A DNA stretch of 64,000 bases from Lepidurus packardi (Eukaryota; Arthropoda; Branchiopoda; Notostraca; Triopsidae), in assembly GCA_023053545.1 (NCBI GenBank), contig JAKZAN010000047.1, forward strand, positions 186,001 to 250,000. The letters are read 5' to 3'. This document shows positions 34,981 through 61,204 of this stretch, piece by piece; within the stretch, counting starts at the first letter, position 1; every line of letters begins with the position of its first letter. The notes beneath the pieces are model-generated. The model was given only the letters and a program-made list of their open reading frames with translations. It was not told the origin of the DNA and did not search any database. The position numbers and the translations under genes are program-made.

Positions 34981-34982
34981 AG

Positions 34983-35027
34983 GAGATAGACGCAAAGGGC
35001 AAGAAGTCCGTGTCAAGGAGCAAATAG
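34983..35027 (+). pseudogene. Probable ORF1 C-terminal remnant
   Basis: The frame ending in TAG at 35,025-35,027 reads a short basic tail (EIDAKGKKSVSRSK) before stopping three bases upstream of the ORF2 ATG (TAG ACA ATG). Basic C-terminal tails after zinc knuckles are usual for gag-like ORF1 proteins, and an ORF1 stop next to the ORF2 start is usual in two-ORF LINEs. The call is inferred from position and composition; 14 codons cannot establish homology. Confidence 0.4.
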
Positions 35028-35030
35028 ACA

Positions 35031-38000
35031 ATGGGATTGGTACGATTGATTGTGCAGAACATTCGTAAAAGCACATCTCAACTTACTGAAGTTGCTAGAG
35101 AGGCAAACAGAGAAGATGTAACCTTGGTTATTTTATTGATGCCGCCACAGAACTACACTCAATCACGTATCATGGGGTTTGACGTTATTACTCCGTCTCT
35201 TGCTTATGAAGGAGTGATGCTGCTCCGTAAGCCAGACAGCCGTTTCTATGTCCTTGAAATTAAGGAACTATACGCGAAAATCAGGTTGACAAACCCAGGA
35301 GGACGAGCGATATCCATACTTGCAATATATAGAAGGCACACAGCTAACACCGCGTCGCTTCTTGAAGAAGCCTGGGGAAATTACAACCAACACGACCCTG
35401 TGATAGTAACAGGAGATTTCAATGCCCATCACTGGCGGTGGGAGGATAAAGCTTCAGATATACCAGGAATACAACTGTACGACTTTGCCACAGAACATCA
35501 CTTGGACTTGATTAATGAATGGAATGTCCCAACATTTCACAACGAGCGTGGGCACAAATCGACTTTAGACCTCACGTGGTGTTCCCCGCAATTAATCAAG
35601 ACCACAGATTGGCACGTCCTGGATGAAGCAGAGTATTACAATGAATCAGATCACAAAGCCATAGTGATTTCCCTTAATCTTTTGCAAACCCACACGGCAA
35701 AGACAACATGGTGCTACAGCAGGGTCAATTGGAAAGAACTCGCCTCTAACGTACGGGGTGAGGTACTGAAGGCATCACCTAAGTTCGCAGATCTTTCGAG
35801 CCCTATCGCTTTGGACATAGCCGTTGGCAGGCTTACAACAATCATCCAGACGGAAATGACGAAAAGTATCCCCAAAAAATCCGCAAATAACAGGAACAAT
35901 CCTTGGTGGAATAGGGAGCTCCAAATCCTTCGTAAACAAACAGCGGCTGTGCTCAGACAGTACCGTACACACGGGGGCTCTGAGAGGGAAAAGTTATGGA
36001 AAGAAACCAGGAATGCCTATAGAGCGAAAACCAGGGAATTCAGGAATACGTATTGGTCTGAACAACTTAATACACCAGACAGCAGGGTTATTTGGAACCT
36101 AGACCGGCAAATGAGGGTCTACAATAATAACAAGCTCGAATTCCTGAGACGAAATGATGGTACGCCTTTCCCAGATGCGATTACGAAATTAAATTTTGTG
36201 GCGACACACCTGCTGGACGGGGCCCCGGTAAATTCGCAAGAAGATTCCCTACGACGCCGTTCTTCCCTGTACAAAGCTCGGAAAACCAGAGGTTCTTTTT
36301 ATGAAGCCCCTTTCACCAGGGAGGAAATTTCTGAGATAATCGAGGGACTCCAACCATGTAAAGCTGCTGGAGTGGATGAAATCCAAGCAATCATCATTAA
36401 ATCCCTATGGAGTGCTATTGGCCCAACAGTGGTTAGCTTGTATAATGCCTCTCTGGCCCTGGAATATCACCCCAAAGCATGGAAGACTGCTAAAGTTATT
36501 ACGCTCCCTAAGCCTGGGAAGCAGAGCTACACGTCAATCAAGAGTTTTCGACCAATCTCCCTGCTACCGGTATTGGGGAAAATACTAGAAAAGGCAATAG
36601 CAAATCGGTTAAAGCTGTTTCTAGAAGATAACGATAAGTTGTCGGATATGCAATGGGGTTTTAGACCAGGGCGATCAACAGTGGATGCCATGGTGAATTT
36701 CAGCGATGCGATTTTGGATAGCTTCGATAAAGGGAAAGTCCTTTCAGCCTTACTGTTGGACATTTCCGGAGCATTTGACAATGTAAACCACGAAGTGTTA
36801 GTTGAAGAGCTTTGGGCGCTGAAAGTTCCATCACAAGTGACCAGATGGATTAAGAGTTTTCTCGAGAAACGGAGAGCATATGTGGTTTTTGGTGAAGAAA
36901 AAAGCGATGTCGTCTCGATTATTAAGGGAGTTCCGCAAGGCTCTCCCCTATCACCGATATTATTCTTGATGTACATTGATGGAGCGTTGGGATGCATAAA
37001 ACGGAAGAAGATCGACATGCAAGCTTTCGCGGATGACCTGTTGATTTTTACATCGAGCACCTCCAGCGAGAAAAATGTCAAGCTTCTGAGCAACAACTTG
37101 GCTGCGCTCGAAAAATGGGCTAAGAAGCACCGACTACAGTTTGCGAAAGAAAAGACGGAATTAATTCACTTTTCCAAAAAGCAAAAACCAGAAGCCACAC
37201 CCCTCGTTTGGGACGGTACGATAGTCCATTCTAAGGATGCGGTCAGGTACCTCGGTCTAGTTTATGACAATAGTCTCACATGGACACACCATGTTAACCG
37301 TCTGGTAGTCCAATGCAATTTAACCCTGCAAAGGATACACAAAGTGATGAGATTTTCAAGAGCTGTCACTTGCCGTCAGGTCCGTACTCTTTTTCAGACG
37401 ACGGTCCTCTCAAAACTAAGCTATGCTTTCCCAGCCTGGTGCAACATCTCTTTGGCTAAGCTACGACCCATTATCCAACTGTATAGAAAGGGCCTGTTAG
37501 CAATAACAGGAGCCCTCAAAACAACCCCAACCGTTGCTTTGGAAATAGAATCGGGCCTACCACCATTCGATTTGTACCTCGAGAGATTAGTGCTCCGCGA
37601 CTACGCTTCAAGATACTGGGACAAATGGCCCGTTTCCGAAGAGGTACCCAGGCACAGACGATACACGTCCTGTTTGGAGAGGGCAAGAGTACTTGCAGCC
37701 GTCGTCTGGAAGTCAAGCCCAGATTCCATAAAGGTAGCTCGTGGTTGGATAGAAGAAGCAACGATGAGTCAATGGAAGGAACGTTGGAATAATTCTCAGA
37801 GCCCGTTACAGGATCTGACCCATGGACCATCTCGTCAAGGAATAGTGTACGTCCACCTTCCCAGGACAATCATCTCAAAGATGATTCAAGTGAGAACCAC
37901 ACACTTCCCAACCAGGAGCTACCTCCAACGAATCCAAAAATCCGACTCGGACCTATGTCCATGCCAGGATAGAACTAGACAGGACCTACCGCATCTACTG

Positions 38001-38165
38001 TTCCACTGTCGTCGACTCAACAAGCAACGTGCCCAACTACTCCAGAAGCTAAACAAGTTAAAAATCCATTTTAACGCAAAGGAATTGCTAACCAGCCCTA
38101 AAGCTTTCAACACACTTACTATTTTTCTACACGAAGCGAATCAAAGTTGCATAAGGGTGTTCTAG
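35031..38165 (+). CDS. LINE ORF2: endonuclease-reverse transcriptase (copy 1)
   Basis: 1,044 aa, uninterrupted. Residues 1-215 form an apurinic-type endonuclease with QNIRKS (N10), GDFNAHH (128-134), STLDLTW (177-183) and SDH (206-208). The metal-binding glutamate expected near residue 37 is Met (LLMPPQ); the related element at 56,289 has LEPPQ there. Reverse transcriptase motifs run from about 440 to 720: FRPISLL (506), QWGFRPGRST (541-550), LLLDISGAFDNV (574-585), GVPQGSPLSP (633-642) and the catalytic FADDL (666-670). A C-terminal CPC...H...C motif (976-993; CX1CX9HX4C) probably binds nucleic acid. No RNase H domain is seen. The protein would nick target DNA and copy the element RNA onto it. 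The start at 35,031 follows the presumed ORF1 stop and aligns with MNDKPIK of the related element. Confidence 0.93.
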   Translation: MGLVRLIVQNIRKSTSQLTEVAREANREDVTLVILLMPPQNYTQSRIMGFDVITPSLAYEGVMLLRKPDSRFYVLEIKELYAKIRLTNPGGRAISILAIYRRHTANTASLLEEAWGNYNQHDPVIVTGDFNAHHWRWEDKASDIPGIQLYDFATEHHLDLINEWNVPTFHNERGHKSTLDLTWCSPQLIKTTDWHVLDEAEYYNESDHKAIVISLNLLQTHTAKTTWCYSRVNWKELASNVRGEVLKASPKFADLSSPIALDIAVGRLTTIIQTEMTKSIPKKSANNRNNPWWNRELQILRKQTAAVLRQYRTHGGSEREKLWKETRNAYRAKTREFRNTYWSEQLNTPDSRVIWNLDRQMRVYNNNKLEFLRRNDGTPFPDAITKLNFVATHLLDGAPVNSQEDSLRRRSSLYKARKTRGSFYEAPFTREEISEIIEGLQPCKAAGVDEIQAIIIKSLWSAIGPTVVSLYNASLALEYHPKAWKTAKVITLPKPGKQSYTSIKSFRPISLLPVLGKILEKAIANRLKLFLEDNDKLSDMQWGFRPGRSTVDAMVNFSDAILDSFDKGKVLSALLLDISGAFDNVNHEVLVEELWALKVPSQVTRWIKSFLEKRRAYVVFGEEKSDVVSIIKGVPQGSPLSPILFLMYIDGALGCIKRKKIDMQAFADDLLIFTSSTSSEKNVKLLSNNLAALEKWAKKHRLQFAKEKTELIHFSKKQKPEATPLVWDGTIVHSKDAVRYLGLVYDNSLTWTHHVNRLVVQCNLTLQRIHKVMRFSRAVTCRQVRTLFQTTVLSKLSYAFPAWCNISLAKLRPIIQLYRKGLLAITGALKTTPTVALEIESGLPPFDLYLERLVLRDYASRYWDKWPVSEEVPRHRRYTSCLERARVLAAVVWKSSPDSIKVARGWIEEATMSQWKERWNNSQSPLQDLTHGPSRQGIVYVHLPRTIISKMIQVRTTHFPTRSYLQRIQKSDSDLCPCQDRTRQDLPHLLFHCRRLNKQRAQLLQKLNKLKIHFNAKELLTSPKAFNTLTIFLHEANQSCIRVF

Positions 38166-38395
38166 TTAGCAGAGTTTTTGCCCTGCTGTCTCCCCCCCTC
38201 CACCCTCCTTGTCATGTGTCCCCCCCTCCACCCCCTTTGTGTCCTATCCCCCTCTCCACCCTTTTGTTCTATGTGCTATGTTAAAGGGTAATGCAGAAGC
38301 ATCACCCCTTTACCAATTTTTTAAATTATTGACAATGTACAGAAGGCATATTTAATAAAGCTTGAGGCAATAGGCGCGAGCCTACGCCTGTTAAA

Positions 38396-38398
<3 letters not shown>
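38166..38398 (+). other. LINE copy 1 3' UTR
   Basis: Begins with about three imperfect C-rich repeats (units like CCCCCCTCCACCC followed by TTTGT, 38,186-38,272). A strong hairpin at 38,282-38,312 has arms TAAAGGGT/ATGC and GCAT/ACCCCTTTA around loop AGAA, with one mismatch and one bulge. AATAAA lies at 38,354-38,359. A terminal hairpin TAGGC-GCGA-GCCTA (GNRA-type loop) sits at 38,371-38,384, 14 bases before the poly(A). In this class such 3' structures can serve as recognition sites for the element's own reverse transcriptase; that role here is inferred. Confidence 0.7.

Positions 38399-38425
<27 letters not shown>
38399..38425 (+). other. 27-nt poly(A) tail, LINE copy 1
   Basis: Pure A run joined directly to satellite at TTCAGTCCGT. 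It marks the 3' end of the element and, with the target duplication, target-primed insertion. The length is the same as in copy 2 (49,285-49,311). Confidence 0.95.
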
Positions 38426-38426
<1 letters not shown>

Positions 38427-41400
38427 TCAGTCCGTAAGGAACTAATTCAGTCCGTAAGGAACTAATTCAGTCCGTAATGTATTAATTCAGTCCGTGAGAA
38501 ATTAATTCAGCCCGTAAGGAATTAATTATTTCCCTAAGGAATTAATTTGGTCCGTAAGGAATCAATTCAATCCGTAAGGAATTAATTCAGTCCGTAAGGA
38601 ATTAATTCAATCCGTAAGGAATTAATTCAATCCGTAAGGAATTAATTCAGTCCGTAAGGAATTAATTCAGTCCAAAAGGAATTAATTCAATCCGTAATGA
38701 AATAATTCAGTCCATTAATTAATTAATTCAGTCCGTAAGGAATTAATTCAGTAAGTAAGGAATTAATTCAGTCCGTAAGGAATTAATTTAGTCCGTAAGA
38801 AATTAATTCAGCACGTAAGGAATTAATTCATTCCCAAAGGAATTAATTCGGTCCGTAAGGAATTAATTCATACCGTTAAGAATTAATTCAGTCCGTAAGG
38901 AATTAATTCAATCCGTAAGGAATTAATTCAGTCCGTAAGGAATTAATTCATTCCGTAAGGAATTTATTATGTTAGTAAGGAATTAATTCAGTCCGTAAGG
39001 AACTAATTCAGTCCGTAATGTATTAATGCAGTCCGTAAGAAATAAATTCAGCCCGTAAGGAATTATTTCAATCTCTAAGGAATTAATTTGGTCCGTAAAG
39101 AATTAATTCATTCCGTTAAGAATTAATTCATTCTGTAAGGAATTAATTCAATCCGTAAGGAATTAATTCAGTACTTAAGGAATAAATTCAGTCCGTAAGG
39201 AATTAATTCAGTCCGTAAGGAATTAATTCAATCCGTAAGGAATTAATTCAGTCCGTAAGGAATTAACTCAGTCCGTAAGGGATTAATTCAGTCCGTAAGG
39301 AATTAATTAAGTCCGTAATGAATTGATTCAGTCCGTAAGGAATTAATTCAGTCCATTAATTAATTAATTCAGTACGTAAGGAATTAATTCAATCCTTAAG
39401 GAATTAATTCAGTCCGTAAGGAATTAACTCAGTCCGTAAGGGATTAATTCAGTCCGTAAGGAATTAATTAAGTCCATAAGGAATTAATTCAATCCGTAAG
39501 GAATTAATTCAGTCCTTAAGTAATTTATTCAGTCCGTAAGGAATTAATTCAATCCGTAATGAATCAATTCAGTCCATTAATTAATTAATTCAGTACGTAA
39601 ATAATTAATTCAGCCCGTAAGGATTTAATTCAGTCCGTAAGGAATTAATTCAGTCCGTAAGGAATTAATTCAGTCCGTAAGGAATTAATTCAATCCGTAA
39701 GGAATTAATTCAGTCCGTAAGAAATTAATTCAGCCCGTAAGGAATTAATTAATTCCCTGAGGAATTAATTTGGTCCGTAAGGAATTAATTCATTCCGTAA
39801 GGAATTAATTCATTCCGTAAAGAATTATTTCAGTCCGTAAGGAATGAATTCAATCCGTAAGGAATTAATTCAGTCCGTAAGGAATTAATTCAGTCCGTGA
39901 TGAATTAATTCAATCCGTAAGGAATTAATTCAATCCGTAAGGAATTAATTCAGTCCTTAAGTAATTAATTCAGTCCGTAAGGAATTAATTCAATCCGTAA
40001 TAAATCAATTCAGTCCATTAATTAATTAATTCAGCCCGTAAGGAATTAATTCATTCCGTAAGGAATTAATTCATTCCGTAAGGAATTAATTCAGTCCGTA
40101 AGGAATTAATTCAGTCCGTTAGGAATTAATTCAGTCCGTAAGGAATTAATTCAGTCCGTAAGAAAGTAATTCAGCCCGTAAGGAATTAATTCAGTCATTA
40201 AGGAATTAATTCAGTCCGTAAGGAATTAATTCTATCCGTAAAGAATTAATTCAATCCGTAAGGAACTAATTCAGTCCGTAAGGAACTAATTCAGTCCGTA
40301 ATGTATTAATTCAGTCCGTGAGAAATTAATTCAGCACGAAGGAATTAATTAATTCCCTAAGGAATTAATTTGGTCCGTAAGGAATCAATTCAATCCGTAA
40401 GGAATTAATTCAGTCCGTAAGGAATTAATTCAGTCCGTAAGGAATTAATTCAATCCGTAAGGAATTAATTCAATCCGTAAGGAATTAATTCAGTCCGTAA
40501 GGAATTAATTCAATCCGTAATGAATTAATTCAGTCCATTAATTAATTAATTCAGTCCGTAAGGAATTAATTCAATCCGTAATGAATTAATTCAGTCCATT
40601 AATTAATTAATTCAATCCGTAATGAATTAATTCAGTCCATTAATTAATTAATTCAGTCCGTAAGGGATTAATTCAGTAAGTAAGGAAATAATTCAGTCCG
40701 TAAGGAATTAATTCAGTCCGTAAAAAATTAATTTAGCACGTAAGGAATTAATTCATACCGTTAAGAATTAATTCAGTCCGTAAGGAATTAATTCAATCCA
40801 TAAGGAATTAATTCAGTCCGTAAGGAATTAATTCATTCCGTAAGGAATTTATTATGTTAGTAAGGAACTAGTTCAGTCCGTAATGTATTAATGCAGTCCG
40901 TAAGAAATAAATTCCGCCCGTAAGGAATTAATTCAATCTCTAAGGAATTAATTTGGTCCTTAAGGAATTAATTCATTCCGTTAAGAATTAATTCATTCTG
41001 TAAGGAATTAATTCAATCCGTAAGGAATTTATTCAGTCCGTAAGGAATTAATTCAATCCGTAAGGAATTAATTCAATCCATAAGGAATTAATTCAGTCCG
41101 TAAGAAATTAATTCAGCCCGTAAGGAATTAATTAATTCCCTAAGGAATTAATTTGGTCCGTAAGGAATTAATTCATTCCGTAAGGAATTAATTCATTCCG
41201 TAAGGAATTATTTCAGTCCGTAAGGAATGAATTCAATCCGTAAGGAATTAATTCAATCCGTAAGGAATTAATTCAATCCGTAAGGAATTAATTCAGTCCT
41301 TAAGTAATTAATTCAGTCCGTAAGGAATTAATTCAATCCGTAATAAATCAATTCAGTCCATTAATTAATTAATTCAGCCCGTAAGGAATTAATTCATTCC

Positions 41401-44400
41401 GTAAGGAATTAATTCATTCCGTAAGGAATTAATTCAGTCCGTAAGGAATTAATTCAGTCCGTTAGGAATTAATTCAGTCCGTAAGGAATTAATTCAGTCC
41501 GTAAGAAAGTAATTCAGCCCGTTAGGAATTAATTCAGTCATTAAGGAATTAATTCAGTCCGTAAGGAATTAATTCTATCCGTAAAGAATTAATTCAATCC
41601 GTAAGGAACTAATTCAGTCCGTAAGGAACTAATTCAGTCCGTAATGTATTAATTCAGTCCGTGAGAAATTAATTCAGCACGAAGGAATTAATTAATTCCC
41701 TAAGGAATTAATTTGGTCCGTAAGGAATCAATTCAATCCGTAAGGAATTAATTCAGTCCGTAAGGAATTAATTCAGTCCGTAAGGAATTAATTCAATCCG
41801 TAAGGAATTAATTCAATCCGTAAGGAATTAATTCAGTCCGTAAGGAATTAATTCAATCCGTAATGAATTAATTCAGTCCATTAATTAATTAATTCAGTCC
41901 GTAAGGAATTAATTCAGTAAGTAAGGAAATAATTCAGTCCGTAAGGAATTAATTCAGTCCGTAAAAAATTAATTTAGCACGTAAGGAATTAATTCATACC
42001 GTTAAGAATTAATTCAGTCCGTAAGGAATTAATTCAATCCATAAGGAATTAATTCATTCCGTAAGGAATTTATTATGTTAGTAAGGAACTAGTTCAGTCC
42101 GTAATGTATTAATGCAGTCCGTAAGAAATAAATTCCGCCCGTAAGGAATTAATTCAATCTCTAAGGAATTAATTTGGTCCTTAAGGAATTAATTCATTCC
42201 GTTAAGAAATAATTCATTCTGTAAGGAATTAATTCAATCCGTAAGGAATTTATTCAGTCCGTAAGGAATTAATTCAATCCGTAAGGAATTAATTCAATCC
42301 ATAAGGAATTAATTCAGTCCGTAAGGAATTAATTCAGTCCGTAAGGAATTAATTCAATCCGTAAATAATTAATTAAATCCGTAAGGAATTAATTCAGTCC
42401 GTAAGGAATTAAAACAATCCGTAATGAATTAATTCAGTCCATTAATTAATTAATTCAGTACGTAAATAATTAATTCAGTCCGTAAGGATTTAATTCATTC
42501 CGTAAATAATTAATTAAGTCTGTAAGGAATAAATTCAGTCCGTAAGGAAATAATTCAGTCCGTAAGGAATTAATTCAGTCCGTTAGGAATTAATTCAGTC
42601 CGTAAGGAATTAATTCAGTCCGTAAGAAAGTAATTCAGCCCGTAAGGAATTAATTCATTCATTAAGGAATTAATTCAGTCCGTAAGGAATTAATTCTATC
42701 CGTAAAGAATTAATTCAGTCCGTAAGGAACTAATTCAGTCCGTAAGGAACTAATTCAGTCCGTAATGTATTAATTCAGTCCGTGAGAAATTATGTCAGCC
42801 CGTAAGGAATTAATTAATTCCCTAAGGAATTAATTTGGTCCGTAAGGAATCAATTCAATCCGTAAGGAATTAATTCAGTCCGTAAGGAATTAATTCAGTC
42901 CGTAAGGAATTAATTCAATCCGTAAGGAATTAATTCAATCCGTAAGGAATTAATTCAGTCCGTAAGGAATTAATTCAGTCCGTAAGGAATTAATTCAATC
43001 CGTAAGGAATTAATTCAGTCCATTAATGAATTAATTCAGTCCGTAAGGAATTAATTCAGTCCGTAAGGAATTAATTCAGTCCGGAAGGAATTAATTCAGT
43101 CCGTTAGGAACTAATTCAGTCCGTAAGGAATTAATTCAGAAAGTAAGGAATTAATTCAGTCCGTAAGAAATTAATTCAGCATGTAAGGAATTATTTCATT
43201 CCCAAAGGAATTAATTCGGTCCGTAAGGAATTCATTCAGTCCGTAAGAAATTAATTCAGCATGTAAGGAATTAATTCATTCCCAAAGGAATTAATTCATT
43301 CCGTTAAGAAATAATTCATTCTGTAAGGAATTAATTCAATCCGTAAGGAATTTATTCAGTCCGTAAGGAATTAATTCAATCCGTAAGGAATTAATTCAAT
43401 CCATAAGGAATTAATTCAGTCCGTAAGGAATTAATTCAGTCCGTAAGGAATTAATTCAATCCGTAAATAATTAATTAAATCCGTAAGGAATTAATTCAAT
43501 TGTAAGGAATTAATTAATTCCCTAAGGAATTAATTTGGTCCGTAAGGAACTAATTCAGTCCGTTAGGAATTAATTCAGTCCGTAAATAATTAATTCAGTC
43601 CGTAAGAAAGTAATTCAGCCCGTAAGGAATTAATTCATTCATTAAGGAATTAATTCAGTCCGTAAGGAATTAATTATATCCGTAAAGAATTAATTCAGTC
43701 CGTAAGGAACTAATTCAGTCCGTAAGGAACTAATTCAGTCCGTAATGTATTAATTCAGTCCGTGAGAAAATAATTCAGCCCGTAAGGAATTAATTATTTC
43801 CCTAAGGAATTAATTTTTTCCGTAAGGAATCAATTCAATCCGTAAGGAATTAATTCAGTCCGTGAGGAATTAATTCAATCCGTAAGGAATTAATTCAATC
43901 CGTAAGGAATTAATTCAGTCCGTAAGGAATTAATTCAGTCCGTAAGGAATTTATTATGTTAGTAAGGAATTAATTCAGTCCGTAAGGAACTATTTCAGTC
44001 CGTAATGTATTAATGCAGTCCGTAAGAAATAAATTCAGCCCGTAAGGAATTAATTCAATCTCTAAGGAATTAATTTGGTCCGTAAAGAATTAATTCATTC
44101 CGTTAAGAATTAATTCATTCTGTAAGGAATTAATTCAATCCGGTAGGAATTAATTCAGTCCGTAAGGAATAAATTCAGTCCGTAAGGAATTAATTCAGTC
44201 CGTAAGGAATTAATTCAATCCGTAAGGAATTAATTCAGTCCGTAAGGAATTAACTCAGTCCGTAAGGAATTAATTCAGTCCGTAAGGAATTAATTAAGTC
44301 CGTAAGGAATTGATTCAGTCCGTAAGGAATTAATTCAGTCCATTAATTAATTAATTCAGTACGTAAGGAATTAATTCAATCCGTAAGGAATTAATTCAGT

Positions 44401-45866
44401 CCGTATGGAATTAACTCAGTCCGTAAGGGATTAATTCAGTCCGTAAGGAATTAATTAAGTCCGTAAGGAATTAATTCAATCCGTAAGGAATTAGTTCAGT
44501 CCTTAAGTAATTAATTCAGTCCGTAAGGAATTAATTCAGTCTGTAAGGAATTAATTCACTCCGTAAAGAATTAATTCAGTCCGTAAGGAATTATTTCAGT
44601 CCGTAAAGAATTAATTCAATCCGGAAGGAATTAATTCAGTCCGCAAGGAATTAATTCAGTCCGTTAGGAATTAATTCAGTCCGTAAGGAATTAATTCAGT
44701 CCGTAAGAAATTAATTCAGCACGTAAGGAATTAGTTCATTCCCAAAGGTATTAATTCGGTCCGTAAGGAATTAATTCATACCGTTAAGAATTAATTCAGT
44801 CCGTAAGGAATTAATTCAATCCGTAAGGAATTAATTCAGTCCGTAAGGAATTAATTCATTCCGTAAGGAATTTATTATGTTAGTAAGGAATTAATTCAGT
44901 CCGTAAGGAACTAATTCAGTCCGTAATGTATTAATGCAGTCCGTAAGAAATAAATTCAGCCCGTAAGGAATTAATTCAATCTCTAAGGAATTAATTTGGT
45001 CCGTAAAGAATTAATTCATTCCGTTAAGAATTAATTCATTCTGTAAGGAATTAATTCAATCCGTAAGGAATTAATTCAGTACTTAAGGAATAAATTCAGT
45101 CCGTAAGGAATTAATTCAGTCCGTAAGGAATTAATTAATTCCGTAAGGAATTGATTCAGTCCGTAAGGAATTAATTCAGTCCATTAATTAATTAATTCAG
45201 TACGTAAGGAATTAATTCAATCCGTAAGGAATTAATTCAGTCCGTATGGAATTAATTCAATCCGTAAGGAATTAATTCAGTCCTTAAGTAATTAATTCAG
45301 TCCGTAAGGAATTAATTCAGTCTGTAAGGAATTAATTCACTCCGTAAAGAATTAATTCAGTCCGTAAGGAATTATTTCAGTCCGTAAAGAATTAATTCAA
45401 TCCGGAAGGAATTAATTCAGTCCGTAAGGAATTAATTCAGTCCGTTAGGAATTAATTCAGTCCGTAAGGAATTAATTCAGTCCGTAAGAAAGTAATTCAG
45501 CCCGTAAGGAATTAATTCATTCATTAAGGAATTAATTCAGTCCGTAAGGAATTAATTCTATCCGTAAAGAATTAATTCAGTCCGTAAGGAACTAATTCAG
45601 TCCGTAAGGAATTAATTCAATCCGTAATGAATTAATTCAGTCCATCAATTAATTAATTCAGTCCGTAAGGAATTAATTCAGTAAGTAAGGAATTAATTCA
45701 GTCCGTAAGGAATTAATTCAGTCCGTAAGAAATTAATTCAGCACGTAAGGAATTAATTCGGTCCGTAAGGAATTAATTCATAACGTTAAGAATTCATTCA
45801 GTCCGTAAGGAATTAATTCAATCCGTAAGGAATTAATTCAGTCCGTAAGGAATTAATTCAGTCCGT
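38426..45866. repeat. 20-bp satellite array, segment 2
   Basis: 7.4 kb of the same monomer, zone III type, between LINE copies 1 and 2. It contains the junction of the 11-kb tandem duplication at about 43,490. Internal HOR is visible: the GCACGAAGG block near 40,335 recurs near 41,678. No gene or other insertion is seen. Confidence 0.97.
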
Positions 45867-45868
45867 AG

Positions 45869-45913
45869 GAGATAGACGCAAAGGGCAAGAAGTCCGTGTC
45901 AAGGAGCAAATAG
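45869..45913 (+). pseudogene. Probable ORF1 remnant, LINE copy 2
   Basis: Same 14-codon basic tail and TAG ACA ATG spacing as in copy 1, duplicated with it. Confidence 0.38.
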
Positions 45914-45916
45914 ACA

Positions 45917-49311: not shown

Positions 49312-49312
<1 letters not shown>

Positions 49313-52300
49313 TCAGTCCGTAAGGAACTAATTCAGTCCGTAAGGAACTAATTCAGTCCGTAATGTATTAATTCAGTCCGTGAGAAATTAATTCAGCCCG
49401 TAAGGAATTAATTATTTCCCTAAGGAATTAATTTGGTCCGTAAGGAATCAATTCAATCCGTAAGGAATTAATTCAGTCCGTAAGGAATTAATTCAATCCG
49501 TAAGGAATTAATTCAATCCGTAAGGAATTAATTCAGTCCGTAAGGAATTAATTCAGTCCAAAAGGAATTAATTCAATCCGTAATGAAATAATTCAGTCCA
49601 TTAATTAATTAATTCAGTCCGTAAGGAATTAATTCAGTAAGTAAGGAATTAATTCAGTCCGTAAGGAATTAATTTAGTCCGTAAGAAATTAATTCAGCAC
49701 GTAAGGAATTAATTCATTCCCAAAGGAATTAATTCGGTCCGTAAGGAATTAATTCATACCGTTAAGAATTAATTCAGTCCGTAAGGAATTAATTCAATCC
49801 GTAAGGAATTAATTCAGTCCGTAAGGAATTAATTCATTCCGTAAGGAATTTATTATGTTAGTAAGGAATTAATTCAGTCCGTAAGGAACTAATTCAGTCC
49901 GTAATGTATTAATGCAGTCCGTAAGAAATAAATTCAGCCCGTAAGGAATTATTTCAATCTCTAAGGAATTAATTTGGTCCGTAAAGAATTAATTCATTCC
50001 GTTAAGAATTAATTCATTCTGTAAGGAATTAATTCAATCCGTAAGGAATTAATTCAGTACTTAAGGAATAAATTCAGTCCGTAAGGAATTAATTCAGTCC
50101 GTAAGGAATTAATTCAATCCGTAAGGAATTAATTCAGTCCGTAAGGAATTAACTCAGTCCGTAAGGGATTAATTCAGTCCGTAAGGAATTAATTAAGTCC
50201 GTAATGAATTGATTCAGTCCGTAAGGAATTAATTCAGTCCATTAATTAATTAATTCAGTACGTAAGGAATTAATTCAATCCTTAAGGAATTAATTCAGTC
50301 CGTAAGGAATTAACTCAGTCCGTAAGGGATTAATTCAGTCCGTAAGGAATTAATTAAGTCCATAAGGAATTAATTCAATCCGTAAGGAATTAATTCAGTC
50401 CTTAAGTAATTTATTCAGTCCGTAAGGAATTAATTCAATCCGTAATGAATCAATTCAGTCCATTAATTAATTAATTCAGTACGTAAATAATTAATTCAGC
50501 CCGTAAGGATTTAATTCAGTCCGTAAGGAATTAATTCAGTCCGTAAGGAATTAATTCAGTCCGTAAGGAATTTGGTCCGTAAGGAATTAATTCATTCCGT
50601 AAGGAATTAATTCATTCCGTAAAGAATTATTTCAGTCCGTAAGGAATGAATTCAATCCGTAAGGAATTAATTCAGTCCGTAAGGAATTAATTCAGTCCGT
50701 GATGAATTAATTCAATCCGTAAGGAATTAATTCAATCCGTAAGGAATTAATTCAGTCCTTAAGTAATTAATTCAGTCCGTAAGGAATTAATTCAATCCGT
50801 AATAAATCAATTCAGTCCATTAATTAATTAATTCAGCCCGTAAGGAATTAATTCATTCCGTAAGGAATTAATTCATTCCGTAAGGAATTAATTCAGTCCG
50901 TAAGGAATTAATTCAGTCCGTTAGGAATTAATTCAGTCCGTAAGGAATTAATTCAGTCCGTAAGAAAGTAATTCAGCCCGTAAGGAATTAATTCAGTCAT
51001 TAAGGAATTAATTCAGTCCGTAAGGAATTAATTCTATCCGTAAAGAATTAATTCAATCCGTAAGGAACTAATTCAGTCCGTAAGGAACTAATTCAGTCCG
51101 TAATGTATTAATTCAGTCCGTGAGAAATTAATTCAGCACGAAGGAATTAATTAATTCCCTAAGGAATTAATTTGGTCCGTAAGGAATCAATTCAATCCGT
51201 AAGGAATTAATTCAGTCCGTAAGGAATTAATTCAGTCCGTAAGGAATTAATTCAATCCGTAAGGAATTAATTCAATCCGTAAGGAATTAATTCAGTCCGT
51301 AAGGAATTAATTCAATCCGTAATGAATTAATTCAGTCCATTAATTAATTAATTCAGTCCGTAAGGAATTAATTCAATCCGTAATGAATTAATTCAGTCCA
51401 TTAATTAATTAATTCAATCCGTAATGAATTAATTCAGTCCATTAATTAATTAATTCAGTCCGTAAGGGATTAATTCAGTAAGTAAGGAAATAATTCAGTC
51501 CGTAAGGAATTAATTCAGTCCGTAAAAAATTAATTTAGCACGTAAGGAATTAATTCATACCGTTAAGAATTAATTCAGTCCGTAAGGAATTAATTCAATC
51601 CATAAGGAATTAATTCAGTCCGTAAGGAATTAATTCATTCCGTAAGGAATTTATTATGTTAGTAAGGAACTAGTTCAGTCCGTAATGTATTAATGCAGTC
51701 CGTAAGAAATAAATTCCGCCCGTAAGGAATTAATTCAATCTCTAAGGAATTAATTTGGTCCTTAAGGAATTAATTCATTCCGTTAAGAATTAATTCATTC
51801 TGTAAGGAATTAATTCAATCCGTAAGGAATTTATTCAGTCCGTAAGGAATTAATTCAATCCGTAAGGAATTAATTCAATCCATAAGGAATTAATTCAGTC
51901 CGTAAGAAATTAATTCAGCCCGTAAGGAATTAATTAATTCCCTAAGGAATTAATTTGGTCCGTAAGGAATTAATTCATTCCGTAAGGAATTAATTCATTC
52001 CGTAAGGAATTATTTCAGTCCGTAAGGAATGAATTCAATCCGTAAGGAATTAATTCAATCCGTAAGGAATTAATTCAATCCGTAAGGAATTAATTCAGTC
52101 CTTAAGTAATTAATTCAGTCCGTAAGGAATTAATTCAATCCGTAATAAATCAATTCAGTCCATTAATTAATTAATTCAGCCCGTAAGGAATTAATTCATT
52201 CCGTAAGGAATTAATTCATTCCGTAAGGAATTAATTCAGTCCGTAAGGAATTAATTCAGTCCGTTAGGAATTAATTCAGTCCGTAAGGAATTAATTCAGT

Positions 52301-53195
52301 CCGTAAGAAAGTAATTCAGCCCGTTAGGAATTAATTCAGTCATTAAGGAATTAATTCAGTCCGTAAGGAATTAATTCTATCCGTAAAGAATTAATTCAAT
52401 CCGTAAGGAACTAATTCAGTCCGTAAGGAACTAATTCAGTCCGTAATGTATTAATTCAGTCCGTGAGAAATTAATTCAGCACGAAGGAATTAATTAATTC
52501 CCTAAGGAATTAATTTGGTCCGTAAGGAATCAATTCAATCCGTAAGGAATTAATTCAGTCCGTAAGGAATTAATTCAGTCCGTAAGGAATTAATTCAATC
52601 CGTAAGGAATTAATTCAATCCGTAAGGAATTAATTCAGTCCGTAAGGAATTAATTCAATCCGTAATGAATTAATTCAGTCCATTAATTAATTAATTCAGT
52701 CCGTAAGGAATTAATTCAGTAAGTAAGGAAATAATTCAGTCCGTAAGGAATTAATTCAGTCCGTAAAAAATTAATTTAGCACGTAAGGAATTAATTCATA
52801 CCGTTAAGAATTAATTCAGTCCGTAAGGAATTAATTCAATCCATAAGGAATTAATTCATTCCGTAAGGAATTTATTATGTTAGTAAGGAACTAGTTCAGT
52901 CCGTAATGTATTAATGCAGTCCGTAAGAAATAAATTCCGCCCGTAAGGAATTAATTCAATCTCTAAGGAATTAATTTGGTCCTTAAGGAATTAATTCATT
53001 CCGTTAAGAAATAATTCATTCTGTAAGGAATTAATTCAATCCGTAAGGAATTTATTCAGTCCGTAAGGAATTAATTCAATCCGTAAGGAATTAATTCAAT
53101 CCATAAGGAATTAATTCAGTCCGTAAGGAATTAATTCAGTCCGTAAGGAATTAATTCAATCCGTAAATAATTAATTAAATCCGTAAGGAATTAAT

Positions 53196-55200
53196 TCAGT
53201 CCGTAAGGAATTAAAACAATCCGTAATGAATTAATTCAGTCCATTAATTAATTAATTCAGTACGTAAATAATTAATTCAGTCCGTAAGGATTTAATTCAT
53301 TCCGTAAATAATTAATTAAGTCTGTAAGGAATAAATTCAGTCCGTAAGGAAATAATTCAGTCCGTAAGGAATTAATTCAGTCCGTTAGGAATTAATTCAG
53401 TCCGTAAGGAATTAATTCAGTCCGTAAGAAAGTAATTCAGCCCGTAAGGAATTAATTCATTCATTAAGGAATTAATTCAGTCCGTAAGGAATTAATTCTA
53501 TCCGTAAAGAATTAATTCAGTCCGTAAGGAACTAATTCAGTCCGTAAGGAACTAATTCAGTCCGTAATGTATTAATTCAGTCCGTGAGAAATTATGTCAG
53601 CCCGTAAGGAATTAATTAATTCCCTAAGGAATTAATTTGGTCCGTAAGGAATCAATTCAATCCGTAAGGAATTAATTCAGTCCGTAAGGAATTAATTCAG
53701 TCCGTAAGGAATTAATTCAATCCGTAAGGAATTAATTCAATCCGTAAGGAATTAATTCAGTCCGTAAGGAATTAATTCAGTCCGTAAGGAATTAATTCAA
53801 TCCGTAAGGAATTAATTCAGTCCATTAATGAATTAATTCAGTCCGTAAGGAATTAATTCAGTCCGTAAGGAATTAATTCAGTCCGGAAGGAATTAATTCA
53901 GTCCGTTAGGAACTAATTCAGTCCGTAAGGAATTAATTCAGAAAGTAAGGAATTAATTCAGTCCGTAAGAAATTAATTCAGCATGTAAGGAATTATTTCA
54001 TTCCCAAAGGAATTAATTCGGTCCGTAAGGAATTCATTCAGTCCGTAAGAAATTAATTCAGCATGTAAGGAATTAATTCATTCCCAAAGGAATTAATTCA
54101 TTCCGTTAAGAAATAATTCATTCTGTAAGGAATTAATTCAATCCGTAAGGAATTTATTCAGTCCGTAAGGAATTAATTCAATCCGTAAGGAATTAATTCA
54201 ATCCATAAGGAATTAATTCAGTCCGTAAGGAATTAATTCAGTCCGTAAGGAATTAATTCAATCCGTAAATAATTAATTAAATCCGTAAGGAATTAATTCA
54301 GTCCGTAAGGAATTAAAACAATCCGTAATGAATTAATTCAGTCCATTAATTAATTAATTCAGTACGTAAATAATTAATTCAGTCCGTAAGGATTTAATTC
54401 ATTCCGTAAATAATTAATTAAGTCTGTAAGGAATAAATTCAGTCCGTAAGGAAATAATTCAGTCCGTAAGGAATTAATTCAGTCCGTTAGGAATTAATTC
54501 AGTCCGTAAGGAATTAATTCAGTCCGTAAGAAAGTAATTCAGCCCGTAAGGAATTAATTCATTCATTAAGGAATTAATTCAGTCCGTAAGGAATTAATTC
54601 TATCCGTAAAGAATTAATTCAGTCCGTAAGGAACTAATTCAGTCCGTAAGGAACTAATTCAGTCCGTAATGTATTAATTCAGTCCGTGAGAAATTATGTC
54701 AGCCCGTAAGGAATTAATTAATTCCCTAAGGAATTAATTTGGTCCGTAAGGAATCAATTCAATCCGTAAGGAATTAATTCAGTCCGTAAGGAATTAATTC
54801 AGTCCGTAAGGAATTAATTCAATCCGTAAGGAATTAATTCAATCCGTAAGGAATTAATTCAGTCCGTAAGGAATTAATTCAGTCCGTAAGGAATTAATTC
54901 AATCCGTAAGGAATTAATTCAGTCCATTAATGAATTAATTCAGTCCGTAAGGAATTAATTCAGTCCGTAAGGAATTAATTCAGTCCGGAAGGAATTAATT
55001 CAGTCCGTTAGGAACTAGTTCAGTCCGTAAGGAATTAATTCAGAAAGTAAGGAATTAATTCAGTCCGTAAGAAATTAATTCAGCATGTAAGGAATTATTT
55101 CATTCCCAAAGGAATTAATTCGGTCCGTAAGGAATTCATTCAGTCCGTAAGAAATTAATTCAGCATGTAAGGAATTAATTCATTCCCAAAGGAATTAATT
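53196..55200. repeat. 1,102-bp tandem higher-order repeat
   Basis: The tag TTAAAACAAT lies at 53,211 and 54,313, and AATTCATTCAGTCC at 54,031 and 55,133; both intervals are 1,102 bp. The second unit runs until about 55,200, after which the array becomes irregular. In unit A the corresponding first tag is near 42,410, but the second unit is cut off by the 43,490 junction. Confidence 0.8.
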
Positions 55201-56040
55201 CGGTCCGTAAGGATTTAATTTAGTCCGTAAGGAATTAATTCAGTCTGTAAGGAATTAATTAAGTCCGTAATGAATTAATTCAGTCCGTAATGAAATAATT
55301 CAGTCCGTAAGGAATTAATTCTGTCCGTTAGGAATTAATTAAGTCTGTAAGTAATTAATTCAGTCCGTAAGAAATTAATTCAGCCCGTAAGGAATTAATT
55401 CAGTCCGTAAGGAATTAATTATGTCCGTAAGGAATTGATTCAGTAGGTAAGGAATTAATTCAGTCCGTTAGGAATTAATTCAGTCCGTCAGGAATTAATT
55501 CAGCACGTAAAGAATTAATTCAGTCCGCAAGGGATTAATTAAGTCCATAAGGAATGAATGAATTCCGTAATAAATTAATTCAGTCCGTAAGGAGTTAATT
55601 AAGTCTGTAAGGAATTAATTAAGTAGGTAATGAATTAATTCAGTCCGTAATAAATTAATTAAGTCTGTAAGGAATTAATTCAGTCCGTAAGGAATTAATT
55701 CATTCCGTAAGGAATTATTTACGTCCGTAAGGAATTAATTCATTTCCCAAAGGAATTAATTCAGTCCGTATGGTATGAATTCAATCTGTAAGGAATTAAT
55801 TAAGTCCGTAAGGAATTAATTCAGTACGTAATAAATTAATTAAGTCTGTAAGGAATAAATTCAGTCCGTAAGGAAATAATTCAGTCCGTAAGGAATTCAT
55901 TCCGTCCGTAAGGAATTAATTCATTCCGTAAGGAACTAATTCAGTAAGTAAGGAATTAATTCATTCCGTAAGGAACTAATTCAGTAAGTAAGGAATTCAT
56001 TCAATCCTAATGAATTTATTCAATCCTTAAGGAATTAATT

Positions 56041-56150
56041 AATTCCGTAAGGAATTTATTAATTCCGTAAGGAATTTATTAATTCCGTAAGGAATTTATT
56101 AATTCCGTAAGGAATTTATTAATTCCGTAAGGAATTTATTAATTCCGTAA
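56041..56150. repeat. Locally homogenised run of one variant monomer
   Basis: Five exact copies of AATTCCGTAAGGAATTTATT follow one another, then a partial copy. Neighbouring monomers are far more varied, so this is a recent local expansion, probably by slippage or short unequal exchange. Confidence 0.85.
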
Positions 56151-56278
56151 TAAATTAATTCAGTCCGTAAGGATTTGATTCAGTCCGTAAAGAATTAATT
56201 CAGTCCGTAAGGAAATAATTAAGTCCGTAAGTTATTAATTAAGTCCGTAAGGAATTAATTCACTCAGTAAGGAATTAA

Positions 56279-56288
56279 TTAAGTCCGT
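56279..56288 (+). repeat. Target-site duplication, 5' copy, older LINE
   Basis: TTAAGTCCGT before the element, matched by TTAAGTCCGT at 61,205-61,214 after the poly(A). Both carry AAG in place of the consensus CAG, which supports a true duplication. The unoccupied duplicate site near 61,765-61,777 has this sequence once. Confidence 0.82.
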
Positions 56289-56476
56289 AGTGTCAAGGCA
56301 GACGTGTGTCAAATCGCTCTGTGAAAGCAGAGGCGTCTTTCTGTGAAATCCATATCACTGTTGTTAAGAAACGGATTAATCTGGAAAGATCCCATTAGAC
56401 TCTCAAAAGTTACACTGTTTTCAGCTTTTGTTTTTTGTTTCACTGGTTTGGATTAATTGGCTAGATTATCAGGCAG
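56289..56476 (+). promoter_or_regulatory. 5' UTR of older LINE
   Basis: 188 bp of non-satellite sequence before the ORF1 ATG, the expected place for an internal promoter. Inverted repeats could fold: AGACG (56,300-56,304) with CGTCT (56,334-56,338), enclosing CTCTG (56,317-56,321) with CAGAG (56,328-56,332). No recognisable promoter motif was found. Confidence 0.45.
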
Positions 56477-57010
56477 ATGGACGGGGAGCCAGTGCCCTGC
56501 CTTGCGCAGGGCACACGTGGTGAACCTGGTGACCTTGCCAACCGGGTTGAAAGCCAAGTTAAAAACCCACCGCTCATACTTCGCTGTACAATGTGTAGCG
56601 AAAGCTTTACAAAAGACCACCACCTGGCTACAACGTGTCCTGACTGTCGTCACAAAAAAAACTCTCAATCCCGGAAAAGAACAATGTCTCCTATGCGCGA
56701 AGAAACTTCCCGTAAACATTCAGTCTCAGATGAGGAATACCACTCCAAAACCCTTGATCTTCTGCTATCGCAAATCCGATTGCTGCACGGAAACCAAACC
56801 ATAATAATTGAATCAAACAAGACCCTCAAGGAAAATCAAGATCTGCTTATAGGGCAAATTATCTCCTTAACTGAGGAAGTTCAGTCTCTTAAAGATGAAC
56901 TCCACAAAGTGAACCGCTCTCAAGAGGCCCCAACACAGGTGAAAGAAACCTGGTCAGAAGCTATCCGAAAAAAACTCCTCGGACCACAAACCTCGCTCCA
57001 GATCAACTAG
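56477..57010 (+). pseudogene. LINE ORF1, N-terminal part (gag-like)
   Basis: 177 codons from the ATG at 56,477. Residues 37-57 hold CTMC...CPDC (CX2CX13CX2C), a possible small zinc-binding module. A basic stretch follows (RKR near 66-68). Residues about 90-147 are rich in Leu/Ile heptads (LLLSQIRLL ... SLTEEVQSLKDEL), likely a coiled coil for multimerisation, as in other LINE ORF1 proteins. The frame ends at 57,010. The next frame, which carries the RNA-binding half, is already open through 56,941-57,070. A single-base change in the A-run near 56,968-56,974 would explain the split. ORF1 proteins bind element RNA. Confidence 0.7.
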
Positions 57011-57867
57011 GGAATACAGCTCGGGCTAACACCCCAAAACCAACCAAATCCACACTCCCTAAAGAAATATTGATCATCCAGCAAGAAGATCCAGAAAAAT
57101 GGGGAAAAACCATACCGAGAAAGGAATTACTTGAGCTCATCGACGAAGACTTGGCAAAAATTGAACCAAGCTTACCAAGCCCAGTCCTGGCCACAAAGAA
57201 GGAAGAAGGAAAGCTTTTCATCACTTTCAAGTCCAAAGAGGACAAAATAAAGGCAGGAACTGCCATCCAAACTGCAAATTTGAAAAATCTCGGTCGGGTT
57301 AAAATAATTGAACATCGCCCTAATCTTAACATCGTTATCCACCAACTGCCGAAAGACAAACAAGAAACAGAAATTAGCCAACATTTGACAAGGAAAAACT
57401 CAATCCTAGAAATTACCTTTTCGCCAAATCAAATTAAATGGCTGAACCCAACCAGTGACAAAGCATATGGATCTATCATGTACACTTGCAACTCCCAGGA
57501 GGAAAAAAACACGCTACTGAAGGTAGGAGCCCTATTTGCTTTCAATAGAACAGTTCAACTTGAAGAGGCCCATCCACCCCTGGTCATCCAATGCTTTCGC
57601 TGTCAAGCGTATGGCCACTTCGCACAAAAGTGTACAAGCAGATCCAGTAAATGCGCCAAGTGCGCAAGCGAGCAACATTCAACCAAGGAGTGCCAAAGCA
57701 GCCAATTTAAATGCGCAAATTGCCAGGGTAGTCACGCATCTTACGATAGAATTTGCCTTATTCGAGCGGAGGAAATAAAGAAAAGAGGACCAAAAAACCC
57801 CCAAGAAAACACAAAGAACCTGGCAGCCAAAGGAACTTGCACCAGGGATGGTCATCACAATCAATAA
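57011..57867 (+). pseudogene. LINE ORF1, C-terminal part with zinc knuckles
   Basis: Open in a different frame from the upstream part and continuous with it in meaning. A region near 57,320-57,560 (NIVIHQLPKD ... YGSIMYTC) resembles the RRM-like domain that precedes the knuckles in this class. Three Cys/His knuckles lie at 57,592-57,756: CFRCQAYGHFAQKC, CAKCASEQHSTKEC (both CX2CX4HX4C) and CANCQGSHASYDRIC (CX2CX3HX6C). A basic tail follows, and the stop is at 57,865-57,867. ORF2 begins at 57,848 in another frame, a 20-nt overlap. There is no good ATG in this segment, consistent with its being the second half of one ORF1. It is the gag-like nucleic-acid-binding part. Confidence 0.82.
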
Positions 57868-60800
57868 CCAAATTGAAATGAACGATAAACCGATTAAAAT
57901 ATTTATCCACAATATCAGGAAAAATTTTCAGCAGCTACAAGAAACTATAAATTTATCCAGCGAATGTGACTTTGAAGCCGTATTTATCTTAGAACCCCCA
58001 CAAAACTTATCCCCTGGCAAAACCTTTCGCAACTTTGTAACTTATTCCCCAGATGGCGAATATAAGGGGATCGCAACTTTCAAAAACCAAGACACCTCCT
58101 ATATGAAAATTCTTGAAACAAATGAACTTTATTCGGTTATCAAAATACTCCCAGGTCATAACCGCCCAGAATTTATAGTAATCGGCGTATACAGACGATT
58201 CACCCAAGATTTAGAAAAATTACTACAAGAAATTTGGGAGAAATATTCAAAAATTTCACCACGTCTTATCTTCAGTGGAGACATGAACGCTCACCACTGG
58301 GCCTGGGAAGACCATAGCCCGGATATCCCAGGCACCCAACTGTTCGAATTTACCACAACCCACAATTTGACCATCTTAAATGAACATAACTTTTCTACTT
58401 TCTTGAACGAAAGAGGCAATTCATCCACTTTAGATCTAACGTTTGCTACAACCCAGTGCCTACCTTTCGTCGGACACTCCATTTTTAAAAGCCCAGATTT
58501 TATCAACCAATCGGACCACGAAGCAATTATAATAGAAATATATGTCCATAAGGAATCAATTAAATCATGGATATGGAGCTATAATAAAGTGGACTGGATT
58601 AAATTAAACAATACTCTCAATGAGGAACTGAAAAAAAGTAAAATAAAATATCATGACATATCGGGCCCCGAGGAATTAGACGACACAGTTAAAAATCTAA
58701 CGCAAGCACTACATAAAGCAATGGAACTTAATATCCCCAAAACAAATCTTTCCAAAAGAGAAAATCCCTGGTGGTCCAAAGAACTAGCAAACCTCCGGAA
58801 AGAAACAGCTAAAAGCCTAAGGATTTATAAAAATTCAAGAACTGTACAAGACCAAGCCCGATGGAAAACTATGAGAAATTTGTACACAAACAAATGCCGT
58901 GTAGCAAAAAATTTATATTGGGAACAGAAACTAAAAACTCCTGACAACAGAATACTCTGGGGATTGGATAGAGCAAACCGTGAAAAAACAACGAAAAACA
59001 GCCTGGAACAACTGTTAAATCAACAAGGGGACGTTTTCGAGGACGAAATTAACAAACTAAATTTTTTGGCGCAAAAGTTCTTCTCAGCTACTCAAACTTC
59101 GAACTATCAGAACGTAAGAAAATGCAATTTCAGAAGACAGCAAAGATATCCAGAAATATCCTGTCGGGAGCTCAAAACACTCGTGCGAGCTTTACCTAAT
59201 ATTAAAGCACCAGGAGATGATGCCATACAGCCTATAGTGTTAAAAAACACCTGGAAAGTAATCGGAAATATAGTGGTAAATATTTTTAACGCCTCCTTAA
59301 AATACTCGTATTTTCCTACCGCCTGGAAAATCGGAAAAGTGCTCCCTGTTCCTAAACCCAAAAAGGCAGACTATAAAACACATAAGAGTTTCAGCCCCAT
59401 AACCTTACTTTCCACACTAGGAAAAGTTTTAGAAAAAACGATTGCATTAAAAATATTAGATCATATGGAACAAAAATCGCTTCTCTGTGACTATCAGTAG
59501 GGTTTTCGTCCAAAGAAATCGACCACAGATGCTATGCTTGCCCTGAGTAATCAAATCCTAAATGGATTCGACAAACATCAAACTACAACAGCGCTTCTAT
59601 TGGACATTGAAGGAGCCTTTGATAATGTTAATCATAGAAAGTTAATCCAAATACTGAAAAAGAAAAAGGTTACGTCGCAGATTGGCTTCAAAACTTTTTA
59701 GCAGATCGCACAATCTACGTTCAGCATGGTAACCACAGGAGCCAAACTTTTTATGTCAGCAAAGGACTCCCTCAAGGATCACCCCTATCACCAATTTTGT
59801 TCGTCACATATATAGATGGAGCATTAAAACTTCTCAAAAGCAAACGCATCCGTGTGCAGGCTTTCGCTGATGACTTACTTTTAGCTATCAGCGGATCATC
59901 TGGGAAAGTGTCAAAATATCAGGATATCAAAATAATCAGGATGCTTCAGGATGCAAAATAATCAGGAATCAGGATATCAAAAATATCAGGATGCTTCAAA
60001 ATGCCCTGAAAGCACTTGAGAAATGGAGTCTTAGTGTTCACCTCACTTTCAGTCAAAGCAAGACAGAGCTGATACATTTCTCAAAGAAAAGATACCCTGA
60101 CGATACGCCCCTTACATGGGGTGATATCACCATCATCCCAAGACCCCACGTTCGTTATCTTGGCCTCTTATTTGATACAAAGCTATCCTGGAAATCGCAT
60201 GTTAATCGACTTGCAGCCGAAGGAAATTTTATTATTCTGAAAATACGAAACTTGTCCCATAATATTCCAGCTATAAGAACTAACCAGCTGAGACCTCTGC
60301 TTTTAGCTACACTTTATTCTAAGATATTTTACGTCCTACCAGCCTGGTCAAACTTCAAGTTCGAAAAATCCCCCACTTTAAAATACCTTCATCGCCAAGC
60401 CTTGTTAATAATATCCGGAGCATTTAAAACGTCTCCAACATCAACCATAGAAGTAGAGACTGGAATCCCTCCACTGAAGTTGGCCGTCGAAGAAAGGCTG
60501 ATTAGATTCGGTTTAACAAGAAATGCAGCAGACCTCCGAAACATGGATCCTCCTCGTCATTCCTCATACGCAACTTGCTCATATCAAATCGAACAATTGG
60601 TCTCCCAGTTTAACTGTAATCGGGAAACCCAAGAGATCCCAAAAACAGTTAAAAGTATATTCAAACAAAAATGGGTGGAAAATTGGACTAAAAAAACTTC
60701 AACATTGTTAAGTTTAGGAATTACTCCTGAATCCTCACCCATTTGCAAATTAAACTTAAACAGACACACAATTTATACCCTGATAAAACTTCGCTGTTCA

Positions 60801-61073
60801 CACTATCCTTCCTTGGCTTTTCTCCATCGTATAAAGAAGACTGACAACCCTTTCTGCCCGTGCTACGCTCAAAGTTCTCAAGACCTCAAACACATTCTCT
60901 ACCATTGCAGGTGGCTAAACAAACCAAGAGCAATCCTTCTTCAAAAACTATCGAAAGAAAAAGTTCACTTCAATATGCAAAACATTCTAACAAACCCGAA
61001 GATCTTTGCAGCAGTTGAAAGTTTCATAAACAGCTCCCGCGAAATATACAAACAAGGGAGGGCACTATTCTAG
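57848..61073 (+). pseudogene. LINE ORF2: endonuclease-reverse transcriptase, broken
   Basis: The first open part, 57,848-59,500 (550 codons), has a complete set of endonuclease motifs: HNIRKN (57,908), LEPPQ with the catalytic Glu at 57,992-57,994, GDMNAHH (58,277-58,297), STLDLTF and SDH. RT starts near 59,190. The frame stops at TAG 59,498-59,500, where copy 1 has Trp of QWGFRP. RT continues (LLLDIEGAFDNV), shifts frame near 59,680, then shows GLPQGSPLSP and FADD (59,863-59,874). A 50-bp tandem duplication (59,921-59,970 with 59,971-60,000) adds stops. The last part, 59,991-61,073, holds the thumb and the C-terminal CPCYAQSSQDLKHILYHC (60,855-60,908). FRPIS of copy 1 is FSPIT here, another sign of decay. 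A second possible start is ATG 57,878 (MNDKPIK), just after the ORF1 stop. Confidence 0.88.
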
Positions 61074-61204
61074 TCATTTAGAGGAAAGCCCATTGATTTA
61101 AAGTTTAAATAGTGATAACATTGTAAAACAGAAAATTGGAAAGAAAGAAAATAAATATCGGCAAAGAGCTTTGCTCACGCTGAGATTAAATAAAAAAAAA
61201 AAAA
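61074..61204 (+). other. 3' UTR, terminal hairpin and poly(A), older LINE
   Basis: A short AT-rich 3' UTR without the C-rich repeats of copy 1. AATAAA at 61,150-61,155. Hairpin GCAAA-GAGC-TTTGC at 61,161-61,174, followed by TCACGCTGAGATTAAAT and 13 A residues (61,192-61,204). Copy 1 ends with the same arrangement: a 5-bp stem with a 4-nt loop, then ACGCCTGTTAAAG and poly(A). Retention of the layout between diverged subfamilies suggests function. Confidence 0.65.

Follow-up and report, generated by a model that had tools for sequence, protein, structure and literature searches.

Two LINE families at the same position of a 20-bp satellite: targeting, or an ordinary nick preference on a periodic sequence

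The 64,000-nucleotide stretch of Lepidurus packardi DNA analysed here (henceforth the window) is filled by a 20-bp satellite unit, TAAGGAATTAATTCAGTCCG, with three long non-satellite interruptions. These are LINE insertions, termed A1, A2 and B (Table 1), and the question raised by the locus is whether their common position in the monomer reflects recognition of the satellite by a LINE lineage or a less specific property of the target. The junction phases, tails, target duplications and domains of both insertions can be read directly from the window, whereas the reason for the shared position has to be argued.

A scan of the array in 40-base windows, with a 10-base step, returned 12 low-identity rows, five of them corresponding to the LINEs. 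The other seven, of 50–70 bases each, were read as satellite variants, and beyond the LINEs nothing non-satellite above 70 bp in length was flagged among the 52,194 satellite bases. GC skew was 0.14–0.16 over array positions 1–6000 and 0.04–0.08 over 6001–34,000; this contrast with the next 28 kb suggests that the blocks differ in their satellite variants.

Table 1. Positions of the satellite blocks, the LINEs and their parts in the window
Feature	Positions	Strand	Remarks
20-bp satellite, (TAAGGAATTAATTCAGTCCG)n	1–34,980 (left block); 38,426–45,866; 49,312–56,288; 61,205–64,000	+	
A1 target duplication, left copy	34,971–34,981	+	TTCAGTCCGTA, 11 bp minimum
LINE A, copy 1 (A1)	34,981–38,425	+	probable ORF1 end, ORF2, 3' UTR, A tail
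LINE A, probable 3' end of ORF1	34,983–35,027	+	in-frame 14 codons and stop; frame only
LINE A ORF2	35,031–38,165	+	1044 codons from ATG, and stop; APE-type endonuclease and reverse transcriptase
LINE A Met codon (ATG)	35,139–35,141	+	B and TRAS1 carry the endonuclease Glu here
A1 tail	38,399–38,425	+	27 A
A1 target duplication, right copy	38,426–38,436	+	
LINE A, copy 2 (A2)	45,867–49,311	+	same insertion as A1, duplicated
B target duplication, left copy	56,279–56,289	+	TTAAGTCCGTA
LINE B	56,289–61,204	+	5' UTR, ORF1, ORF2 across several frames, 3' UTR, A tail
LINE B ORF1	56,465–57,867	+	two overlapping frames, zinc-knuckle-like end
LINE B ORF2	57,878–61,073	+	frame broken inside reverse transcriptase
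LINE B tail	61,192–61,204	+	13 A
B target duplication, right copy	61,205–61,215	+	

Since A1 and A2 both lie within an exact 5,449-bp duplicate (34,238–39,686 = 45,124–50,572, + strand), they represent a single insertion that was copied, in the chromosome or possibly in the assembly. The independent events are therefore two rather than three, as the initial annotation had maintained. Full identity between the duplicated blocks is found again between roughly 39.8 and 43.4 kb, where the offset is 10,802; as a whole, this recent duplication runs from 34,238 to about 43,400 and from 45,124 to about 54,200, and is exact for 5,449 bp and then for some 3.6 kb more, with the offset reduced by 84 bp. 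It could be the product of real unequal exchange or of an assembly duplication.

The array was walked in phase with the 20-mer, at an identity of 92%. The left flanks of A1, A2 and B all ended at phase 0 or, since the following base is an A in satellite and element alike, phase 1; the right flanks all began at phase 11 or, masked by the A tail, 9–10. The bases just before A1 read ...TTCAGTCCGT(A), and those right after its tail of 27 A read TTCAGTCCGTA; the corresponding sequences for B are ...TTAAGTCCGT(A) and, past the 13-A tail, TTAAGTCCGTA. The common satellite phase and orientation first claimed for the two LINEs thus hold, and the target duplications, initially put at about 10–13 bp, measure 11 bp at the minimum and up to 13 bp with the ambiguous As.

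The 11-mer duplicated at B is a minority variant of the satellite (TTAAGTCCGTA occurs 44 times in the 52,194 satellite bases, versus 977 for TTCAGTCCGTA), which supports a genuine duplication at this site. The variant is, however, locally enriched, being found in 3/9 TCCGTA-containing units in the 200 bp to the left of B and in 2/5 to the right, counts that include the duplicated copies themselves. When the joined flanks were compared with the array in search of an empty-site paralogue, many places matched (90–92% for A and 87–88% for B among the eight best places listed for each) and none clearly fitted both sides.

Both elements display the traits of APE-type non-LTR retrotransposons, namely an endonuclease and a reverse transcriptase, a poly(A) tail and a target-site duplication. 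In A, the matches to PF14529 (1.3e-18) and PF00078 (8e-45) fall in one ORF2. ORF1 is absent from A apart from its putative last codons: an open run of 14 codons closes with TAG at 35,025–35,027, and the ATG of ORF2 follows three bases later, at 35,031. Judging from the frame, this run appears to be the 3' end of ORF1, which would make LINE A 5'-truncated. When nine endonuclease residues were aligned with TRAS1, all nine were retained in B and eight in A, where a Met replaces a Glu; the catalytic role ascribed to this Glu follows APE1 and L1. This copy of LINE A is probably not autonomous, given the apparent 5' truncation and the Met at the aligned Glu position.

Despite the Met-for-Glu replacement, ORF2 of A is open across all 1044 codons. 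Just past it, the 3' UTR carries a C-rich 28-bp tandem repeat (38,187–38,272 and 49,073–49,158). An AlphaFold model of the endonuclease of A, built from a two-sequence alignment, had a mean pLDDT of 47.

LINE B is decayed, since its ORF1 lies in two overlapping frames and its ORF2 is broken within the reverse transcriptase; PF14529 (8.1e-17) and PF00078 (2e-14) were matched on separate pieces of the broken frame. An approximately 26-bp short tandem repeat is found at 59,911–59,998, inside the broken reverse transcriptase. In ORF1 of B, the Pfam scores for CCHC (19.1 bits, cut-off 20.8) and RRM (14.3, cut-off 20.7) are both below cut-off. Such a type I ORF1, with an RRM followed by CCHC knuckles, occurs in the I, Jockey, R1 and other clades (PMC4120745); the layout is thus not peculiar to R1.

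A and B had been labelled two subfamilies, a term that proves too weak: judged from their sequences, they are distinct LINE families, with an ORF2 protein identity of 36–47% depending on the stretch. This amounts to 38% in each of two longer stretches (B 59,500–59,939 excluded), 36% within the endonuclease alone, and 38, 47 and 37% when A is compared with three pieces of B ORF2. The 3' UTRs of A and B showed no significant similarity (128/500 shuffles reach the score).

No RNase H match was obtained in A or in the pieces of B at E up to 0.01, and relaxing the limit to 1 for the two 3' pieces of B gave none either. The R1 clade and the TRAS group are not known to carry RNase H in ORF2. A profile of the A and B endonucleases, compared with solved chains, gave one match at E up to 1, namely TRAS1 (1wdu, E 9.1e-14). 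This exclusive match does not separate clades, because the R1Bm endonuclease, also solved (PMC2868851), was left unmatched and no PDB entry for an endonuclease of the Jockey type is known to us.

Both ORF2s contain a satellite-like stretch on the same strand (12/12 bases at 37,157–37,168 in A, 16/18 at 58,544–58,561 in B), whose scores were reached by 20/4000 and 5/4000 synonymous-codon shuffles, respectively. These values come from ten region/strand tests, preceded by four longest-exact-word tests, and the stretch in A encodes a peptide conserved in B. In view of the many tests and of this conservation, the stretches are likely due to chance.

At the 5' end of A, AAGTCCGT followed by GTCAAGG (35,004–35,018) resembles the 5' junction of B and could be taken for a fossil junction, suggesting that the parent of A also resided in the satellite. 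This reading was set aside because the stretch lies within the open frame 34,983–35,027 and can represent the last codons of ORF1. The leader of A past this stretch showed no significant similarity to that of B (291/500 shuffles reach the score). The spacer at 34,981–35,003, considered as decayed satellite, was also rejected (499/500 shuffles); the same spacer resembles A's own leader (7/500 shuffles).

Searches with a few exact peptide or DNA words yielded no usable relatives of the LINEs or of the satellite in viral_contigs or genome_contigs, which are non-eukaryote collections; word searches of virus and prokaryote collections say little about relatives of A and B. Peptide words matched 43 and 108 stretches in viral_contigs, and 92 stretches were matched in genome_contigs, with 0 confirmed in either case. 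The one locus confirmed in viral_contigs lies on a phage-like contig, and its match, 35 aa long, is due to chance. The plasmid protein search returned at least 5000 records, all below 60% identity; the 20 matches listed were 22.6–26.9% identical, 10 of these 20 being annotated as group II intron reverse transcriptases. The satellite DNA had no match in plasmids (with the low-complexity filter on), and no match was found in phages at 1e-20. In the literature, one 14-mer of the satellite had no match, and six further words led only to a paper on cabbage SSRs.

What the satellite offers to a LINE endonuclease was assessed from its composition. TTAA falls at phase 8|9 in 2116/2524 cases, so that each monomer has a single dominant TT^AA site, which is palindromic. 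TA steps are found mostly at phase 0 (2396) and phase 8 (2371), out of 5637, and these adjoin the presumed cut places of the top and bottom strand. Because GAATTAATTC is palindromic and presents TT^AA on both strands, two insertions at a given phase would agree in strand by chance in one case out of two.

A nick-and-stagger model was run on this array, with the duplication length uniform over 7–20, 8–16 or 5–25 (ranges that we chose). For these three ranges, in this order, the chance that a second event belongs to the observed class was 0.011, 0.017 and 0.007 with blind cuts; 0.031, 0.049 and 0.021 when any T^A can take the first nick and the second cut is free; 0.061, 0.094 and 0.041 with a first nick at TT^AA and a free second cut; 0.11, 0.21 and 0.099 with T^A for both cuts; and 0.21, 0.42 and 0.19 with a first nick at TT^AA and a second cut at T^A. 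The initial annotation had cautioned that a liking for TT/AA could produce part of the match, and this turns out to be the main issue, as a TT^AA nick raises the chance to 0.04–0.09, or to 0.19–0.42 where T^A is favoured by the second cut as well. Human L1 has a strong first-nick signature, no strong second-strand consensus and an endonuclease that is modestly specific in vitro (PMC12809410), so the free-second-cut figures are maybe the fairer null. These figures point only mildly towards a fixed stagger, and two events carry no more than that. Plain chance with no nick preference whatsoever, albeit favoured by the small number of events, is very improbable considering the values of 0.007–0.017 for blind cuts.

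In our opinion, the shared position probably stems mainly from an ordinary preference of the TT^AA type acting on a periodic target. LINEs with apurinic-type endonucleases would have inserted twice, independently, by target priming. The bottom strand would be nicked (presumably before the top one) inside GAATT^AATTC of a monomer, and the T-ended primer would then pair with the LINE RNA at its poly(A), while the top strand would be cut 11–13 bp away, after AGTCCGT(A). The preference, presumably exerted by the nick, by poly(A) pairing or by both, would meet a site repeating every 20 bp, and a fixed stagger in this clade perhaps adds to the coincidence of position. Human L1 favours TTTTT^AA, and part of this may stem from priming on poly(A) (PMC12809410). 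The TT^AA explanation is also favoured because the LINE positions in the satellite of Cuscuta coincide with TTTTAA-like sites, and a property of the target seems simpler than an inherited specificity, because an ORF2 identity of 36–47% would demand a very old satellite.

Several points argue against such an explanation. The 5' junctions share the same base, for which the chance is 4–9% with a free second cut; this counts against it because human L1 lacks a strong second-strand consensus and LINE duplications often vary (10–30 bp in Celine, but 13–16 bp in Cuscuta L1-CS). Both insertions derive from alignable lineages, with no other interruption of more than 70 bp flagged, and the sole solved endonuclease matched, TRAS1, belongs to a target-specific element. 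Furthermore, the preference may be weaker than a strict TT^AA model assumes, because the L1 endonuclease is only modestly specific in vitro (PMC12809410).

An alternative is a truly target-specific lineage, whose endonuclease would recognise the monomer and make its two cuts at set positions, as that of TRAS1 does in telomere repeats, with the array serving as a harmless home. Phase, strand and stagger are identical in two families, the chance is 0.007–0.09 under the three models devoid of a second-cut preference, and TRAS1 (E 9.1e-14) is the sole solved chain that the endonuclease profile matches at E up to 1; the precedent of satellite-targeting LINEs in Cuscuta also makes the idea reasonable (PMC8091179). 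We nevertheless regard such a lineage as rather unlikely, as the events are only two and one common TT^AA site per monomer accounts for much of the match; at 36–47% identity, moreover, a shared inherited specificity would seem unlikely unless evolution ran in parallel. The parallel evolution of one target is described for Keno and Utopia, elements of snRNA genes (PMC4640811). That the long-separated families A and B both recognise the satellite at one phase, strand and stagger, through a targeting kept very long or evolved twice, appears doubtful, somewhat more so than target specificity as such.

Alternatively, centromeric or other heterochromatin, and not the DNA sequence, could steer insertion, with the phase then resulting from the local TT^AA. 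G2/Jockey-3 has been suggested to prefer centromeric chromatin over particular sequences (PMC11620609), and 84% of poplar Celine elements lie within CENH3 domains (PMC11288735). The window, however, gives no sign of which chromatin the array forms, and we consider this explanation unlikely. The window is nearly all satellite, so that whatever inserts there lands in satellite, and its two events give no indication of a preference for the satellite over other DNA.

If targeting were true genome-wide, a short satellite would join the small set of sites known to house LINEs (rDNA, telomere repeats, snRNA genes and CUS-TR24), and the distant A and B would make it possible to test whether the choice of target is handed down or arises anew. 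For now, the locus provides a useful warning that an ordinary nick preference in a tandem repeat can mimic phase-specific independent insertion.

LINEs at fixed satellite positions are already published. In Cuscuta europaea, 91% of 97,860 scored L1-CS elements are associated with the satellite CUS-TR24, where two neighbouring sites of the monomer, TTCTA and TTTCAA, receive most of the insertions; both resemble the TTTTAA of L1 (PMC8091179). As in that system, the LINEs described here interrupt a satellite at fixed monomer positions; L1-CS is one LINE lineage, often in one orientation, with duplications of about 13–16 bp, TTTTAA-like cut sites and segmental duplications alongside (PMC8091179). 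The Cuscuta case differs in involving a 389-bp monomer, a plant L1 lineage and 97,860 elements, as opposed to a 20-bp monomer, another LINE type and two events.

With TRAS1 of Bombyx, A and B share an APE-type endonuclease, and TRAS1 integrates between T and A within a short tandem repeat (PMC2868851; PDB 1wdu). The target of TRAS1, however, is the telomere repeat TTAGG and its specificity has been demonstrated biochemically (same source), whereas any specificity of A and B is hypothetical. The R1-clade element Mino, found in AC repeats (PMC3124438), likewise has short tandem repeats as targets. Finally, G2/Jockey-3 of Drosophila (PMC11620609) and poplar Celine (PMC11288735) are LINEs concentrated at centromeres, and Celine shows unique duplications with merely a loose AAGA/AATA bias (PMC11288735).
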